64,000 bases of DNA, taken from the NCBI GenBank assembly GCA_015066625.1, contig SVOC01000008.1:1-64000 (forward strand). Direction: 5' to 3'. The translations under genes and the position numbers were made by a program. This DNA comes from Oscillospiraceae bacterium (GTDB lineage: Bacteria; Bacillota; Clostridia; Oscillospirales; Acutalibacteraceae). The notes under the pieces are model-generated. The model was given only the letters and a program-made list of their open reading frames with translations. It ran no database searches and was not told the DNA's origin. Positions within the stretch are counted from its first letter, which is position 1. Each line of letters begins with the position of its first letter. This document shows positions 27,805 through 34,607 of the stretch, piece by piece.

Positions 27805-27838
27805 GGCTGTCTCACCTATGTGAAACAGCCTTCATTTT
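27805..27838. terminator. Bidirectional terminator between spoIIE and the SpoIID-domain gene
   Basis: GGCTGT and ACAGCC with inner CA/TG pairs (27805-27830). On the minus strand it is followed by CGTTTTTTA, on the plus strand by TTCATTTT. The minus-strand stop codon at 27837 is only a few bases away. Confidence 0.75.
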
Positions 27839-30110
27839 ATGCAACATATGTAACCGTAAAGCAGTGTGAACGGATTTTGTAATTCATAAGCCCTGTGCGG
27901 AATGCGTTACCCTTCATCTGAGCGTTACCTATCTTTATGGCGGTAACATAGCCGCAGCTGTCGCTTATGCATTTATCGTGCTCAACAACGGTTATCCATT
28001 GGGCAGGATTATCGCCAAGAACAATTCCGCTGTTATAGGATTCAGCAAGCTTTCTGAAATCCTCTGCAGAAATTTCGAATTCCGAAGGATTGGGATTTTC
28101 GGGGCTTGAAACGCCGCCTGCAAGGTAGGGATATGAATTTGCCGACCATACAGTGGATGCGGCTGCGGTTTTGCCTGCAGAGGTTGAGAAATAAACCGTG
28201 TTTGCAGCCGCACCGTTATAATCAACATACTTTGCAACGGGCTTGTCCTCGGCAGCTGCCATTCCCAGATATTCAAGGCACGCCTTGTGGATTTCGGTGC
28301 CTTCAAAGGCAAAGCCCGAATCATATGCATGCTGGCTTGATTTCACAACAAATTTGTTGTGCTTTGCATAAGTGTAAATCGCCGCCATCTGGGCTTTGAC
28401 CGCTTCTTTACCTGCACTGCTGTAGCCCATCTCTTTTTTTGTGGTTTTGCAGATATATTCAATCAGGGGGATATCCGTGCCGCCGTAGTTAACGGTTTCG
28501 GGCGTTGCGGTATCCTCTTTTATTGTTGTGCCGGGGAAATAATGAGTAAGAATCTGCTCATATTTGCTGCCGTTTTTCGCCATTTCAAGAGCGCCGTGCT
28601 GGCTCATACCGACACCGTGGCCGTAGCCGTAAACCTTGAAAACAAACTTGCCGCCCACTGCACCCGTCGTACCCTCTGAAGGTTTCTGAGCTGTTGTTTC
28701 CGCAGGCTTCTGCGTGGTTATTTCAGGTTTTGTTGTTGTGATATTTTCAGCGGTTGTTGCTTTTGTTGTGGTTGCAGTTACCGCCTTGGTTGTGGTGGTT
28801 GTAAGCTTTTCCGTGGTAGTCGCCTTGGTTGTTTTAACCGTTGCGGCAAGAGTGGTCAGCAGATTTGTTACTTTTTCGGTAAGTGTTACGGAAGTTGCGC
28901 TTTCGGTTGACGGGAATGTGATTTCTTCGGGGAAAATTATCAGGTCCATATCCTCGCCTTCAAGCCCGCTTCCGCCGTAATATTCCCCCTGCTGTGTAAG
29001 AGTGGATTCTTCCGCAATGTTATTATTGCCTGCATCAACATACGATGCCTTTGTATACTCACCGCCCATAATAATTGCCGCTATAAGGCAGATTACCGCC
29101 GCAAGCGCAACAGCACATACGGCTATTATGAGCGCGGTTTTTTTGCCGTCTTTCTTTTCGGGTGCACGGGGGATAACAATACCTGCACCGCCCGCCACTT
29201 CTTCAAGCATTGAACAAAGCTTTATGACTGCCGCCGCAACAAGCTGCTTACTGCCTTCGCCGGGAAGGGCAAAAACCCTTGCAGCCCTTGCACCCTTCGA
29301 ATCCGCAACGCAGACCGTCACGTAATCCTCGCCCTCGTCGGCGGCGGTAATATCGGAAATTGAAATTCCGAAATCTGCCTGAGTTGTTTCTTTCGAAAGC
29401 TTTGCACTCTGAGTTATGAAATCTTCGGCACTTTCGCCCTCGGCCGCCTCTTTCACGGTTGAATCGGGAATAAATGCCTCCTCACTTCCGGGCACTGCGG
29501 TAATTACCGAAAGAAGTGCCTTTGCGCTGCCGCAGGGAGAAACTGCAACGGTTTTGCCGCTTTTGATAACGGCATTCACGCTCTCTTTAACCTGCTCCAT
29601 AGCCGATTTTTTGGGCTTTGCAACGGGGAACGCCTTTGCGAAAAGAGCTTCAAGACCTGCGGCAAACACCGCCGCCGCTCTTTCTTCTTCAAGAGGCATA
29701 ACCGCAACAAGACCCTCTCCCAGCTCCTTTGCAAAAGCGGAATAAAGTCCGTCTGAAGAAACAAAGAGCTTTGATTTTTCGGGCACTGCACAATGAATGT
29801 CCTTTTCTTTGGAATTCTCGGGCAGATTACCCTGTAAGGCAGAAACTATTGTGCTGCTTCTGACAATTTTTGAAGAAAAAAGTTTAAGCAAACGGAGTTT
29901 TGCGGCAGAAAACATTGAAGTGGGCACAGCCGCAACAATAATGCCGCCCTCGCAGGCACATTTTGCAACAGCATCGGCAAAAGACGCAGAGTCGCCGTAA
30001 TCCGCAGCGGATGTATCGGGATAAAACTGCTTTAGTTTTTGCTCGATATATGCAGACCCGTTTTGCACCGAAGAGGCACAAAGGGTAAGCAAGCTCACCT
30101 TTCTTTTCAT
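27837..30110 (-). CDS. Membrane protein: degenerate CinA-like cytosolic half fused to a permuted SpoIID/LytB domain
   Basis: A 757-residue protein. The ATG at 30110 follows CGGAG; a TTG nine codons earlier precedes that site. Residues 1-155 resemble the CinA MoCF-like domain, and 165-305 its amidohydrolase domain (AVIKSGKTVAVSPCGSAKAL; ADFGISISDI), both without catalytic motifs. A membrane helix lies at 324-348, then a Thr/Lys-rich linker (400-480). The extracellular SpoIID/LytB part (488-757) begins with GYGHGVGMSQHGALEMA, which normally ends this domain. EMGYSSAGKEAVKAQMAAIY, FSTSAGKTAA and a final RTGLMNYKIRSHCF follow. SpoIID proteins cut or assist peptidoglycan remodelling during engulfment. 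This one may be a sporulation or cell-wall relative; its exact role is unknown. Confidence 0.75.
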   Translation of the reverse strand: MKRKVSLLTLCASSVQNGSAYIEQKLKQFYPDTSAADYGDSASFADAVAKCACEGGIIVAAVPTSMFSAAKLRLLKLFSSKIVRSSTIVSALQGNLPENSKEKDIHCAVPEKSKLFVSSDGLYSAFAKELGEGLVAVMPLEEERAAAVFAAGLEALFAKAFPVAKPKKSAMEQVKESVNAVIKSGKTVAVSPCGSAKALLSVITAVPGSEEAFIPDSTVKEAAEGESAEDFITQSAKLSKETTQADFGISISDITAADEGEDYVTVCVADSKGARAARVFALPGEGSKQLVAAAVIKLCSMLEEVAGGAGIVIPRAPEKKDGKKTALIIAVCAVALAAVICLIAAIIMGGEYTKASYVDAGNNNIAEESTLTQQGEYYGGSGLEGEDMDLIIFPEEITFPSTESATSVTLTEKVTNLLTTLAATVKTTKATTTEKLTTTTTKAVTATTTKATTAENITTTKPEITTQKPAETTAQKPSEGTTGAVGGKFVFKVYGYGHGVGMSQHGALEMAKNGSKYEQILTHYFPGTTIKEDTATPETVNYGGTDIPLIEYICKTTKKEMGYSSAGKEAVKAQMAAIYTYAKHNKFVVKSSQHAYDSGFAFEGTEIHKACLEYLGMAAAEDKPVAKYVDYNGAAANTVYFSTSAGKTAAASTVWSANSYPYLAGGVSSPENPNPSEFEISAEDFRKLAESYNSGIVLGDNPAQWITVVEHDKCISDSCGYVTAIKIGNAQMKGNAFRTGLMNYKIRSHCFTVTYVA

Positions 30111-30370: not shown

Positions 30371-32341
30371 TTACCAGCGGGCATCCTGAGCATATGGATT
30401 AACCGCTTTCTTATTTGCATCATACCATGCCTGGGGATACTTGGGGTTGGGATTTTCAATTGCCTTTGAGGTATCTACGCTGACACTTTCGCCGTCGCGT
30501 TTAAGCCTTGCAACAACAACAAGCCTTGCCTCGTTGAAGTCGTAGCAGCAGGTTGAAAGGGTCAGAATCTTATCGCTTACATTGATGTCAACACCTGTTG
30601 TATAAAGCTTACGCTTGTCGATTTCATCAATGTAGCCTTCAAACTTGGCTGTGGAAATATCAATAAAGTTATAGGGGAAAAGATATCCGTTATCATCCTT
30701 GGGATCAGAGTTTGTGATGAATACGGCATAGACAAACCAGGTATAGTCGCCGTAAATGGTATTACACTCAATAACGGGTGCGGTCTTGAAGCCGTCAACG
30801 GTACGGTAGTTTTCAAGGTTGCCGAAGATATAGTCGTCGGAACGCATGTTGTGGCCGTAGATAACATTGTTTCTGTGAAGATTACGGAAATCGGTCATTC
30901 TGTAATCAAAGAAGGGCACACCGTACATTGTATATTTGCCGTAAATATCTTTTTCAAGGTAATAATCGTTATCAACACCCTGCGCAACGGGGAAGTTGAT
31001 ATCAAGACCGTCTATTGAAACCCAGCCTCTCAGGTCTTTGTTAGCCGCGTAAAGCTGACCGTACTTTGCAAGCATACCTTCGGGGAATTCAACCCCGGGA
31101 AACTCGCTTTCAAGTCGTGAATCAACAACGGCAGTCTGATCGTGCTGGCTGATATTCTGACTCATCTGATCTGCAACCTGCTGTGCGGTTTTGCGGAACA
31201 TAAGAGGCTGAACAATGTATGTGTTAACGATAATTGCCGAACAAACAACAATGGTAATTGCGGAGATTGCAAGAACAACCTTTCTCACAATACCTGCCGC
31301 CTTGCTTTCGGGCTTTTCTTCTTTTTCTTCCTTCTTTTCTCTCTTGCGTTTCGCCTTCTTCTCAGCTTCCTTTGCCTCAAACTCCTCTTCGGTCATATAG
31401 GCAATTCCGCTGCCCATGGGTTCGGGCTCATAAAGCTTTTCGGGCTGAGCCGCAGCAGCTTCATAATCGTTGCCGTCATCGGGAATATCAATCATAAATC
31501 CTGCAGATGCCGAGGGCTTTTCTTCGGGCACTTCATCACCCAGAAGAATTGCAAGCTCTCTTTGGAAATCTTCACTGTCGGTATCCACAGCTTTTTCGGG
31601 TGCGGGGATTTCCTCTGCAGGAGCATCTGCAACAGCTTCAACTGCACTGTCGGTTTCTTCTTCGGGAAGATCCCATACGGTATCATCTGCCTCATAAGCG
31701 GCAGGGTCAGTAACAAGGCTTGCCGCAACGGAAAGCTCCGTATCAACCGTTGCAATACCTTGGTTTGCTTCAATTTCGGAAAGTATGTCTCCGAATCCCG
31801 TTTCACCGTCAGAATCCGCCTTCAGCATATCAATCATACTGAAAATATCATCCTTTGCGGCATCTGCACCCGTTTCAGGCTCTTCGGGTGTTTCTTCTTC
31901 AACAACTTGGGGCTCCGATACCTCATAAACATCGGGCTCGTCCTCATCAAGAGAAACAACGGGAATTTCTTCGTCGTAGTAATCCTCGGGGTTCATCCAC
32001 AAATCATCAAGAGATGAAGCCTCTCCGTCTTCGGGAATCTGAGGGTCTGAAAGTGCGACCTTTGCAGGCTCCGCCTCACTTGCGGTCAGCACCGACATGG
32101 GCTTTGGCACAATGACTTCGGGACCGCTGCCCACAATATCGTCGTAGAGGCTCTGCAGCTCGCTTTCAATACTCTTTTCAGTGCTTTCAATATCCTCATG
32201 GAAGCCCTCAAAAAGCGGTGCCGCTTTGGAGCTTTCTTCAAGGAAATCCGTAAGATTAATTTCGGTTATTGCCTCATCGTCTGCAATTGAGCTGAGTCCT
32301 TCGGGCAGTGATGAAGGCTTTTTTTCGTTATCGTTTGCCAT
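30371..32341 (-). CDS. Class B sortase with long acidic cytosolic N-terminus
   Basis: Sortases are membrane transpeptidases that join secreted proteins to peptidoglycan or to each other. This 656-residue protein has an unusual N-terminal region (1-325) rich in Glu/Asp/Pro, a Lys/Glu-rich charged stretch (325-347), one membrane helix (351-377) and an extracellular class B sortase domain. Its catalytic residues are His497 (NVIYGHNM), Cys598 (LTLSTC) and Arg606. The last 45 residues (PQAWYDANKKAVNPY) resemble the end of the neighbouring sortase, so the two are probably a duplicated pair. No LPxTG- or NPxTN-type substrate is encoded nearby. Confidence 0.9.
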   Translation of the reverse strand: MANDNEKKPSSLPEGLSSIADDEAITEINLTDFLEESSKAAPLFEGFHEDIESTEKSIESELQSLYDDIVGSGPEVIVPKPMSVLTASEAEPAKVALSDPQIPEDGEASSLDDLWMNPEDYYDEEIPVVSLDEDEPDVYEVSEPQVVEEETPEEPETGADAAKDDIFSMIDMLKADSDGETGFGDILSEIEANQGIATVDTELSVAASLVTDPAAYEADDTVWDLPEEETDSAVEAVADAPAEEIPAPEKAVDTDSEDFQRELAILLGDEVPEEKPSASAGFMIDIPDDGNDYEAAAAQPEKLYEPEPMGSGIAYMTEEEFEAKEAEKKAKRKREKKEEKEEKPESKAAGIVRKVVLAISAITIVVCSAIIVNTYIVQPLMFRKTAQQVADQMSQNISQHDQTAVVDSRLESEFPGVEFPEGMLAKYGQLYAANKDLRGWVSIDGLDINFPVAQGVDNDYYLEKDIYGKYTMYGVPFFDYRMTDFRNLHRNNVIYGHNMRSDDYIFGNLENYRTVDGFKTAPVIECNTIYGDYTWFVYAVFITNSDPKDDNGYLFPYNFIDISTAKFEGYIDEIDKRKLYTTGVDINVSDKILTLSTCCYDFNEARLVVVARLKRDGESVSVDTSKAIENPNPKYPQAWYDANKKAVNPYAQDARW

Positions 32342-32385: not shown

Positions 32386-33366
32386 TCAGTTGGGGCTGGG
32401 CTGCCATTTTTCCGCACCCTTGTAGGGATTTGTTTTGCCCTTTGCGTTATACCATACCTGAGGTCTGCGGTAATCGGGGTTATCCTTAACAAGAGAAGCA
32501 TCGATTGCCTCGCTTTCGCCTTCGTGAAGAAGTCTGCCCACAACAACAAGCCTTGTATCAACATTCTTGCCGTAATCGTAAATGCAGGTTGAAAGGGTGA
32601 TTACCTTATCCGTAGGTTCAAGTGATACACCGGTTTCGTAAAGCTTGCGCTGATTTACCTGCTCAATGTAGCCAACCATATTGTTTTCGCCCATATCGGG
32701 ATAAATATAGTTGAAGAAGTAGCCGTTATCGTCCTTGGGCTGAGTGTTTGAAAGGAAAACGGCACAGATTTTGTAAGTATACTCACCTGTCAATGTCTTA
32801 TATTTGATAATGGGGTTTTTAATGAAGTGGTTTTTATCTCTGTAATCATAGAGCGAACGGAACGCCTGCTTGGGGATACCGTCGGATTTACCCGTTGTGT
32901 GACCGTGAATAACCATATTTTTTGAAAGATGGTCGGGCAGACAGCGGTAATCGAGATAGATGTTGCCGTAGTTATCTGCCGATGTTTCGTAAGTAGTCTT
33001 ATTATAGAAATCCTTTTTGAGATAATAGCTGTTGTCATCGCCCAGAAGCACTGCGGTATCCATTTCCGTGCCGGGGATTGAAAGCCAGCCTGCAAGGTCA
33101 TTGTTGATTGCGTATGCCTGCTTGAGCTCCTCAAGAATACCTTCGGGATACTGAGTCTGAGCCTTCATTGCGTTTGACTTAACACTGTCAAGCTCTGCGC
33201 TTACGGTATCGTTTTCAACACCTTCGGCAAGAACAAGACCCGCCGTTTTTTCGTCAATGAAACCTTCATCGGATTTTTTTGTGAAATTCACGGCGGCAAG
33301 CACTGTGAAAAGCACGGCAACAGCCGCAAAAACCGCCGTAAGTATTACAGCAACCTTTTTATTCAT
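32386..33366 (-). CDS. Class B sortase
   Basis: A 326-residue membrane-anchored transpeptidase. It has an N-terminal signal anchor (residues 4-27, VAVILTAVFAAVAVLFTVLA) and a class B sortase domain with His156 (MVIHGHTTG), Cys261 (VITLSTC) and Arg272. The C-terminal segment PQVWYNAKGKTNPYKG matches that of the larger sortase encoded next. It starts 2 nt after the cinA stop behind TTGGAGG, so it belongs to the nifS-thiI-cinA transcription unit. Its substrate is not in the window. Confidence 0.93.
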   Translation of the reverse strand: MNKKVAVILTAVFAAVAVLFTVLAAVNFTKKSDEGFIDEKTAGLVLAEGVENDTVSAELDSVKSNAMKAQTQYPEGILEELKQAYAINNDLAGWLSIPGTEMDTAVLLGDDNSYYLKKDFYNKTTYETSADNYGNIYLDYRCLPDHLSKNMVIHGHTTGKSDGIPKQAFRSLYDYRDKNHFIKNPIIKYKTLTGEYTYKICAVFLSNTQPKDDNGYFFNYIYPDMGENNMVGYIEQVNQRKLYETGVSLEPTDKVITLSTCIYDYGKNVDTRLVVVGRLLHEGESEAIDASLVKDNPDYRRPQVWYNAKGKTNPYKGAEKWQPSPN

Positions 33367-33368
33367 TC

Positions 33369-34607
33369 TTATTTATCCTCCAAATATTTTCTCGCCAGAT
33401 TCAGGGCACGGGACCCCGTAACGTAGCGGTTATATTCTCTGTCATTTCTGCCGGTTTCGACTTTTTCGCAAATCTGCACGCCCTCCGCATCGAGAGCAAC
33501 ATAGCTTAAACCCACGGGCTTGCTTGTGCCGTCACTGCCGGGGCCTGCTATGCCCGTTACGGCAATGCCGATATCCGCACCGGATACACGGCGTATGCCT
33601 GCCGCCATTTCTCTTGCGGTCTGCTCGCTGACAGCACCGTATGCTTCAAGGGTTTCTGCTTTTACGCCAAGCAGCTTCTGTTTGATTTCGTTGGAATAAG
33701 TTACCGCGCCGCAGCCGAAAACATTACTTGTCCCCGGGAAATCGGTTATTCTTTTTGAAATATAGCCTGCGGTACAGCTTTCTGCCGTGGCAACAGTCAG
33801 CTTTTTCTCTTTGAGAAGCTGAACAACTCTTTCTTCAATGCTTTCGCTGTCAATTCCGTATACATAGCCGCCAAGCCTTGATTTGATTTCATCAATGACG
33901 GGTTCGCAAAGCTTTTCAGCTTCGTCGGTATTCTCCGCCTTCGCGGTCACACGGAGAAGCGCCTCGCCTTTTTTTGCATAGGGTGCAACGGTAGGATTTT
34001 CTTTTTCAAGCAAATCGGCACAGATTTCAGCCATTGAGCTTTCGCCGATTCCCATTGTTCTTACGGTATGTGACACAATAGAACCTTCGGAATATTCGCT
34101 GAGAAACGGCACAACGCTTTCCTGATACATAGGTGCCATTTCGTAAGGCGGACCGGGAAGGATAACAACACATTTGCCGTTTTTCTTTATGCCTATGCCC
34201 GGTGCGGTGCCGTTATTGTTCTCAAAAACCGTCTGACCCTTGGGCACATAAGCCTGCCTTAGATTGCTTTCGGGCATCTCAATATTTTTTGAATCAAAAT
34301 AAGCTTTGATTTTCTCTGCAATTTCGGAGTCAAGCTCCGTTTCACAGCCCATAACCTGACAGCACACATCCCTTGTGATATCATCCTGAGTAGGGCCCAG
34401 ACCGCCTGTTGCGATAACGATATCGCTTCTTTCGAGTGCGGTTTTCAGTGCGGCGGCAAGCCTTTCGGCATTATCGCCCACGGTTGTATGTCTGAGAACG
34501 GAAATGCCAAGCTTTGCAAGCTCAAGGGAAAGATATCTTGAATTTGTGTTAAGAATATCGCCAAGAAGTATTTCCGTACCTACGGAAAGTATTTCGCAAA
34601 CCGACAT
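33369..34607 (-). CDS. cinA: CinA family protein (nicotinamide-nucleotide amidase / competence-damage protein)
   Basis: CinA proteins recycle NMN through a C-terminal amidohydrolase, with an N-terminal MoCF-like domain that handles ADP-ribose or NAD by-products. The start chosen is MSVCEILSVGTEIL at 34607, 8 nt after GGAG; two upstream ATGs overlap or abut that site. The 412-residue protein has an intact GGLGPTQDDITRD in the first domain and TVATAESCTAG and ADIGIAVTGIAGPGSDG in the second. Length is normal. It is complete, unlike the CinA-like half of the protein at 27837-30110. Confidence 0.95.
   Translation of the reverse strand: MSVCEILSVGTEILLGDILNTNSRYLSLELAKLGISVLRHTTVGDNAERLAAALKTALERSDIVIATGGLGPTQDDITRDVCCQVMGCETELDSEIAEKIKAYFDSKNIEMPESNLRQAYVPKGQTVFENNNGTAPGIGIKKNGKCVVILPGPPYEMAPMYQESVVPFLSEYSEGSIVSHTVRTMGIGESSMAEICADLLEKENPTVAPYAKKGEALLRVTAKAENTDEAEKLCEPVIDEIKSRLGGYVYGIDSESIEERVVQLLKEKKLTVATAESCTAGYISKRITDFPGTSNVFGCGAVTYSNEIKQKLLGVKAETLEAYGAVSEQTAREMAAGIRRVSGADIGIAVTGIAGPGSDGTSKPVGLSYVALDAEGVQICEKVETGRNDREYNRYVTGSRALNLARKYLEDK

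Follow-up and report, generated by a model that had tools for sequence, protein, structure and literature searches.

A degenerate CinA domain joined by a predicted membrane helix to a circularly permuted SpoIID domain in cinA-sortase loci

The fusion gene and its locus

We analyzed a stretch of 64,000 nucleotides from an Oscillospiraceae bacterium (the window; GenBank assembly GCA_015066625.1, contig SVOC01000008.1) and report on one gene on its minus strand (27837..30110). The gene encodes 757 amino acids (aa): a CinA-like part that has lost the active sites of CinA (hereafter dead CinA), a membrane helix, a Thr-rich linker and a circularly permuted SpoIID domain. The open reading frame (ORF) starts with an ATG at 30110 and ends with a stop codon at 27837-27839, the plus-strand reading of 27837-30110 contains many stops, and full-length relatives occur within the same genus. 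We regard this anatomy as secure, and the product of this gut bacterium is a predicted single-pass membrane protein.

Dead CinA consists of a MoCF/COG1058-like half (aa 1-160, 29631..30110), from which the GGLGPTxDD motif is lost, and a PncC/CinA-C-like half (aa 165-318, 29157..29618), where the positions of the deamidase Lys and Arg are absent; each was assigned by hhalign of the half alone and by a residue table. Hydropathy places the membrane helix at aa 329-347 (29070..29126), after a Lys-rich stretch, and by the positive-inside rule we infer that the N terminus lies inside the cell. The linker (aa 351-484, 28659..29060) holds 37 Thr in 134 residues. Helix and linker join the two parts of the protein as the original prediction, made from the letters of the window alone, had described. 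Matches to the SpoIID structure 5i1t place the C-terminal SpoIID module (YGYGHGVGMSQ...HYFPGTTIK) first (aa 486-532, 28515..28655) and the SpoIID core second (aa 545-757, 27840..28478), with the predicted catalytic Glu at aa 560 (28431-28433). All these features lie on the minus strand.

A terminator-like hairpin (27805..27830, minus strand; 11-pair stem and T run) directly follows the stop codon; it comes from a consensus scan only, which found 9 such sites against 4.8 expected. Beyond it lies spoIIE, convergent to the fusion gene. Upstream, on the strand of the fusion gene, are two class B-type sortases, cinA, thiI and nifS. The first sortase (30371..32341, minus strand; Pfam Sortase 5.1e-10) has a long acidic N-terminal tail, presumed cytosolic, and its top NCBIfam match, TIGR03064, reaches 130 bits, below the 153.75 cut-off; the second (32386..33366, minus strand; Pfam Sortase 3.5e-9) has the same top match at 109 bits, also below cut-off. 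The true CinA (33369..34607, minus strand) carries MoCF, KH and CinA domains with intact motifs according to Pfam and NCBIfam. cinA and the two sortases are closely packed, with gaps of 2 and 44 bp, and a gap of 260 bp precedes the fusion gene.

The CinA-like half

According to the original prediction, the cytosolic half of the protein is a degenerate CinA. BLASTP of the protein against the neighboring CinA gave a chance-level result (E 0.23), and no CinA model of Pfam or NCBIfam matches residues of this half, even at E 10. Profile comparison gave a different picture: in hhalign, residues 1-318 (26 sequences) matched a CinA profile of 30 rows at 94.6% (E 6.5e-8), colinearly across both catalytic domains, and a more diverse set of 39 rows (the window protein and 38 relatives) matched at 98.4% (E 9.6e-15) over 306 columns. 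A reversed profile scored 0.6%, 100 column shuffles at most 0.7% and 100 block shuffles at most 9.7%, these controls being built on the first profile (93-95% match) and not on the 39-row one. The match was also specific half by half: aa 1-160 alone selected the MoCF part of CinA (73%, E 3e-5), aa 165-318 alone selected the CinA-C part (91.5%, E 8e-7), and the crosswise pairings scored 0.1-0.2%.

When the 30 window ORFs of at least 280 aa were compared with the dead-CinA profile, CinA scored 96.6%, besides the gene itself, and the next ORF 1.4%; profiles of five other families in the locus gave at most 2.6%. Across 295 genomes of the order, the weaker matches to the dead-CinA profile fell, among the matches listed, mostly in ORFs of CinA-like length (410-480 aa). 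A search of 177,635 PDB sequences returned as its best match 6mr3, a "putative competence-damage inducible protein", at a weak E of 0.051. In the profile alignment, AVIKSGKTVAVSPCGSAKAL of dead CinA pairs with LLKEKKLTVATAESCTAGYI of CinA, and ADFGISISDI with ADIGIAVTGI, just as had been proposed; since pairwise BLAST is at chance level and the homology is visible to profiles only, this motif line-up alone would not have sufficed. The profile matches, their controls and the half-by-half specificity together show that the resemblance is real and that residues 1-318 are homologous to CinA. In a tree of 45 rows and 3 CinA sequences, where some long branches are of unsure place, the dead-CinA family forms one branch apart from true CinA (support 100).

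The claim that this half follows CinA end to end holds for the two catalytic domains, which are present in order. Two pieces are absent: the KH domain (most of that CinA stretch is unpaired, and Pfam finds no CinA_KH match) and the segment bearing the catalytic Lys. The AlphaFold model of dead CinA is confident within its domains (predicted local distance difference test, pLDDT, 93.7) and uncertain in their packing (predicted template modeling score, pTM, 0.60); compared by eye, its helices and strands follow one another as expected for CinA-C minus the segment that bears Lys63.

The predicted loss of the catalytic motifs was borne out across the relatives. We numbered residues after Agrobacterium tumefaciens CinA, transferring the numbers by motif onto columns of the window protein; the roles of these residues are those described in the excerpted text of PMC5384747, which also reports that Ala mutants of the general base Lys and of the phosphate-binding Arg had no detectable activity. 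In the window protein, nothing aligns with Lys63, Gly120 or Arg145. The position of the deamidase Ser31 holds Thr in 17 of 39 rows, Cys in 9 and Ser in 3, and that of Thr105 holds Ser in 38 and Thr in 1. At the ADP-ribose site, GGLGPTxDD is kept whole in 0 of 39 rows; its first Gly and first Asp occur in none, and lone positions match by chance (second Gly in 5 rows, Pro in 5). New conserved positions have appeared, each in 39/39 rows: K71, an aromatic residue at 67 (Phe or Tyr), and Ser or Thr at 252. A new enzymatic activity of this half could draw on the Thr, Cys or Ser at the deamidase Ser position (29/39 rows) and on the retained Ser/Thr 252; however, neither the Lys that serves as general base nor the Arg that binds phosphate has an aligned counterpart, and we consider such an activity very improbable.

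Dead CinA is poorly conserved, with a mean column identity of 31%. That figure, and the absence of the domain from five Ruminococcus genomes described below, would suit a relic, a mere anchor left by a cinA duplication with no function of its own. The ratio of nonsynonymous to synonymous substitution rates (dN/dS) speaks against this. Between the window and its closest relative, L084, the CinA half has a dN/dS of 0.126, helix and linker together 0.193, SpoIID 0.07 and true CinA 0.047. The comparison with L085, where dS is high, gives 0.171 for the CinA half, 0.48 for helix and linker and 0.173 for SpoIID, so that the CinA half equals the SpoIID domain there. Helix and linker evolve fastest in both. 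The dead-CinA domain is thus under purifying selection, and several genomes keep it as a separate gene; the relic reading, already disfavored by dN/dS, is the least probable that we weighed. With both active sites gone and dN/dS at 0.126 and 0.171, the domain appears to be kept, but not as CinA.

CinA itself combines a COG1058 ADP-ribose pyrophosphatase, a KH domain and a PncC nicotinamide mononucleotide (NMN) deamidase; dead CinA shares two of these three domains in the same order but lacks KH, has both active sites destroyed, is predicted to be membrane-bound and is joined to a wall enzyme. CinA homologs without NMN deamidase activity are known in YfaY and YdeJ of Escherichia coli (PMC3855486), which differ by description: the excerpted text of that paper does not describe them as joined to a membrane helix or a wall enzyme. 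The same text mentions fusions of CinA to further domains as occasional, without details.

The permuted SpoIID half

The extracellular half matches TIGR02669 (SpoIID/LytB) at 111.1 bits, above its cut-off of 83.3. PF08486 reached 20.1 bits on the protein, below its cut-off of 23, and 25.4 bits, above it, in the genome search. The domain was therefore assigned correctly in the original prediction, which missed that it is circularly permuted: residues 488-532 match 284-328 of 5i1t and residues 550-748 match 67-273, and a 60-row profile aligned to 5i1t (E 7e-41) in two swapped stretches, 283-327 first and then 53-280. The segment order is thus reversed relative to SpoIID/LytB, the GHGVGMSQ module standing ahead of the core. 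E560 aligns with residue 101 of chain 5txu and is invariant in 60/60 aligned rows (the window and 59 of 80 loci); mutation has shown E101 to be the catalytic Glu of Clostridioides difficile SpoIID (PMC6221140, excerpted text). AlphaFold models the permuted domain with a pLDDT of 96.4 and a pTM of 0.92. It resembles the solved SpoIID proteins (5i1t, 5txu, 4rwr) in match and catalytic residue, and differs from them in its swapped segments, its fusion to dead CinA and its sortase neighbors.

All 80 loci that we compared, the best 80 of at least 549 confirmed relatives, chosen by similarity to the permuted query, have the permuted order. Of 391 genomes sampled across the class, 156 had a match at E 1e-20, and two among the matches listed spanned both segments in permuted order: that of the window genome and that of G697, from another order (the match in G669 begins within the first segment). 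No sortase, cinA or dead CinA was found within the 16 kb examined around the permuted SpoIID of G697 (L250).

Permuted domains without dead CinA occur as proteins of ~330 aa, with M23 peptidase domains, with M23 and C39 peptidase domains, and with dockerin and SH3 domains. Fusions to M23 were found by Pfam in L116 and L118 and by eye in L033, L071, L072 and L079-L081; L116 also carries C39. Such proteins are possible wall hydrolases of two or three activities. Dockerin repeats (L128 by Pfam, L136 and L144 by eye) suggest that a wall hydrolase may dock on a cohesin-bearing scaffold. SpoIID-like stretches are also contained in three unannotated gut phage records (MT835515.1, MT835786.1 and MT839758.1). 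We rejected a mobile origin: plasmids gave no long match (one record, covering 6% of the query), and the phage records gave partial matches only.

We placed 62 of 106 rows (24 canonical and 38 permuted) in a tree of the SpoIID core. The permuted cores group with three canonical-order ones (L181, L182 and L197), apart from the 21 other canonical cores (98 by the Shimodaira-Hasegawa-like approximate likelihood-ratio test, SH-aLRT, a quick method). These three also sit in cinA-sortase loci, and L181 and L182 are fused to dead CinA. L251 likewise has a canonical-order SpoIID after cinA and three sortases. In L177 and L178 such a SpoIID comes after a CinA-sortase fusion, and both cores fall among the other canonical ones. 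Since SpoIID of canonical order thus occurs in cinA-sortase loci, the permutation may have arisen after SpoIID became linked to sortases. Segment order changes three times on the tree, strongly supported branches forcing one of these changes, as a gain or a reversal. Similarly, fused and separate states of dead CinA require three changes on the dead-CinA tree, of which strongly supported branches force only one.

Sortase context and a possible docking role

Thirty-eight of the 80 loci carry a full dead CinA; L094 and L111, whose frames hold the second CinA half only, were not counted. Dead CinA is fused to SpoIID in 32 of the 38, always with a membrane helix between the halves (32/32), and is a separate gene in six (L136, L139, L142, L144, L145 and L146), immediately upstream of the permuted-SpoIID gene in each. 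A sortase lies near dead CinA at 36 of the 38 loci and cinA at 33. Three of the five loci without cinA (L088, L104, L108) are at contig ends or on short contigs; L144 and L145 are not. The other 42 permuted-SpoIID loci include 19 with a sortase and 15 with cinA. Three genomes (G013, G029 and G030; L064-L066) encode dead CinA with a helix, identified by eye, and a tail without SpoIID. Dead CinA is rare, with 5 strong matches in the 295 genomes of the order and one, the window's own, in the 391 of the class.

Several dead-CinA genomes (G013, G029, G030, L097 and L181-L183) have true CinA as a short, deamidase-only form of ~160-190 aa; the short match of G030 contains internal stops. The separate dead-CinA proteins of L136, L142 and L144 share a short C-terminal motif, (D/S)DF(D/E)xF, which L139 lacks.

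The original prediction had linked the fusion to spoIIE, and the convergent spoIIE next door would suit a role in spore formation, with the protein as a second enzyme of SpoIID type that acts in engulfment or at some other stage. This link did not extend to the relatives: spoIIE is near only 2 of the 38 dead-CinA loci, and we rejected it as a sporulation clue. SpoIVA is encoded in 22 of 23 genomes carrying the permuted domain or its sortase-linked relatives, which agrees with a sporulation role but, being nearly universal in the set, does not discriminate and is uninformative as a test. The window genome and at least six others of the genus also have a canonical SpoIID gene, placed in the tree apart from the sortase-linked group (98 SH-aLRT). 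A role in sporulation is therefore rather improbable, and the sortase and cinA neighborhood, the unfused gene pairs and the CinA-sortase fusions described next, all missed in the original prediction, point to a sortase-linked machine instead.

Among long open frames holding CinA, we found seven proteins in which CinA, a membrane helix and a sortase are fused (L174-L180, in genomes G193, G275, G088, G073, G050, G039 and G101), spanning five families and at least 7 of the 295 genomes. Pfam, run on six of them, found Sortase in 6/6 and the CinA domain in 5/6, L175 matching MoCF and KH models only; L174, the sole fusion run against NCBIfam, is a class B sortase (176 bits, above cut-off). L174, L176, L177 and L178, four of the six tabulated (L180 is outside the table), keep all the listed NMN-deamidase residues. 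L178 lacks the N-terminal domain, L179 differs at one deamidase residue (Pro110 replaced by Asp) and at one position of the ADP-ribose motif, and L175 has lost most of the listed deamidase residues, its genome encoding a second, true CinA. No sortase was found within other long CinA ORFs (535-544 aa; G094, G122, G292 and G209).

The sortase tails hold a recurrent motif. Among 63 sortases with more than 200 residues ahead of the sortase domain, 7 of them CinA fusions, a motif of the type DFxxELxxLLG(D/E) precedes the sortase domain in 13, against 0.01 expected by shuffling uncorrected for relatedness. A looser pattern occurs in 15 of 56 long tails and 0 of 58 short ones. DFxxELxxLLG(D/E) is a possible docking motif. 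It occurs three times each in L093 and L096, which like the window sortase at 30371-32341 have very long acidic tails; the N-terminal stretch APxFEGFHEDIE is common, by eye, to the window sortase and L093 tails.

These observations suggest that CinA has become part of a machine of the cell envelope. We propose, at about even odds (roughly 0.5), that the CinA fold serves as the cytosolic docking part of a complex of sortase and wall hydrolase, holding the SpoIID enzyme where sortase works. Dead CinA would be the docking module. Its partner would be true CinA, the two making up a mixed oligomer, or the neighboring sortase, bound by its long acidic tail, or both. CinA is a dimer (PMC4246079, excerpted text), so it could also form pairs with a dead paralog in which the fold is kept. 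Docking would keep the glycan-cutting SpoIID enzyme, which would reach into the wall on its flexible Thr-rich linker, at the site where sortase attaches surface proteins, and the wall would be opened at spots of protein anchoring. Other genera may achieve this connection without an intermediary, their sortase being fused to a CinA that looks intact. We favor docking because it accounts most simply for both kinds of fusion, CinA-SpoIID and CinA-sortase, and because a sortase and cinA accompany dead CinA at 36 and 33 of 38 loci, against a sortase in 3 of 40 CinA neighborhoods across the order. Also in its favor are the CinA homology, the purifying selection on a domain that has lost its active sites, the newly conserved positions, the confident model, the occurrence of dead CinA and permuted SpoIID both as fused and as adjacent genes, the invariant Glu and the recurrent motif of the tails. 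The scaffold or cytosolic sensor for a wall enzyme that the original prediction envisaged thus remains the best class of explanation, in a context of sortase and cinA and not of spoIIE.

Several observations weigh against docking. The 40 neighborhoods, picked by hand among the matches listed for full-length CinA with known fusions excluded, some of them ended by contig ends, contained a sortase in 3, SpoIID in 1 and thiI in 30; with 37 lacking a sortase nearby, we rejected a general cinA-sortase linkage, and the link holds for particular lineages. At L144 and L145, cinA was not found despite ~8.9 kb examined upstream. Five Ruminococcus genomes keep sortases and permuted SpoIID with dead CinA in 0/5, so dead CinA is not essential to the sortase/SpoIID module; Ruminococcus flavefaciens is among the species with these sortases and the permuted SpoIID. 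In four of the six separate-gene genomes dead CinA has no membrane helix beyond the part that resembles CinA, and the SpoIID partner carries just one hydrophobic segment, at its N terminus (signal peptide or anchor), so that the two would touch each other little or not at all. The tail motif, finally, is missing from 50 of 63 tails, and the shuffles behind its expected count ignore relatedness.

Alternatively, dead CinA could be a metabolite sensor, binding a nucleotide or small molecule at a remodeled site and switching SpoIID through the helix without a protein partner. The conserved positions gained near what were once the ADP-ribose motif and the deamidase site (K71, aromatic 67, Ser/Thr 252) and the purifying selection on this half would fit, as would the NAD derivatives that are ligands of true CinA (PMC4246079, excerpted text). 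CinA's own deamidase ligand is, however, an unlikely one, as no residue aligns with the Arg that binds phosphate or with the catalytic Lys. The lack of a helix on dead CinA in four of six separate-gene relatives also counts against it, and a linker of more than 130 residues would be a poor transmitter of a shape change. We hold a sensor to be possible, if unlikely.

A broader version of the docking proposal is likewise possible, if unlikely. NAD-salvage CinA would form the cytosolic half of a trans-envelope machine in several Clostridia families, the intact protein wired to sortase and the dead copy to a permuted lytic transglycosylase; mixed oligomers would join both, and the NAD or DNA-repair state of the cell would gate anchoring and wall opening.

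We judge the system to be a new coupling of known parts. The window locus resembles class B sortase loci in having two class B-type sortases beside the fusion gene, and differs from them by its SpoIID-type enzyme and CinA and by the CinA-sortase fusions of other genera. In open-licence PMC full text we found no description of a circularly permuted SpoIID, of a CinA-transmembrane-SpoIID fusion, or of SpoIID-type enzymes and CinA in class B sortase loci. Nothing on SpoIID with sortase or with dockerin was relevant as judged from the listing, and nothing on CinA with sortase, among the matches listed, looked relevant by title.

To our knowledge, the biological role of CinA outside NAD salvage is unclear. 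A 2024 study ruled out a part for CinA in pneumococcal transformation and stress tolerance (PMC11708029, excerpted text). In the genomes compared here, gene fusions link both intact and dead CinA to a sortase and to a wall hydrolase, which yields a testable prediction on the binding partners of CinA. The circularly permuted SpoIID family, in turn, offers a natural view of the SpoIID fold cut and rejoined with its predicted catalytic residue kept.

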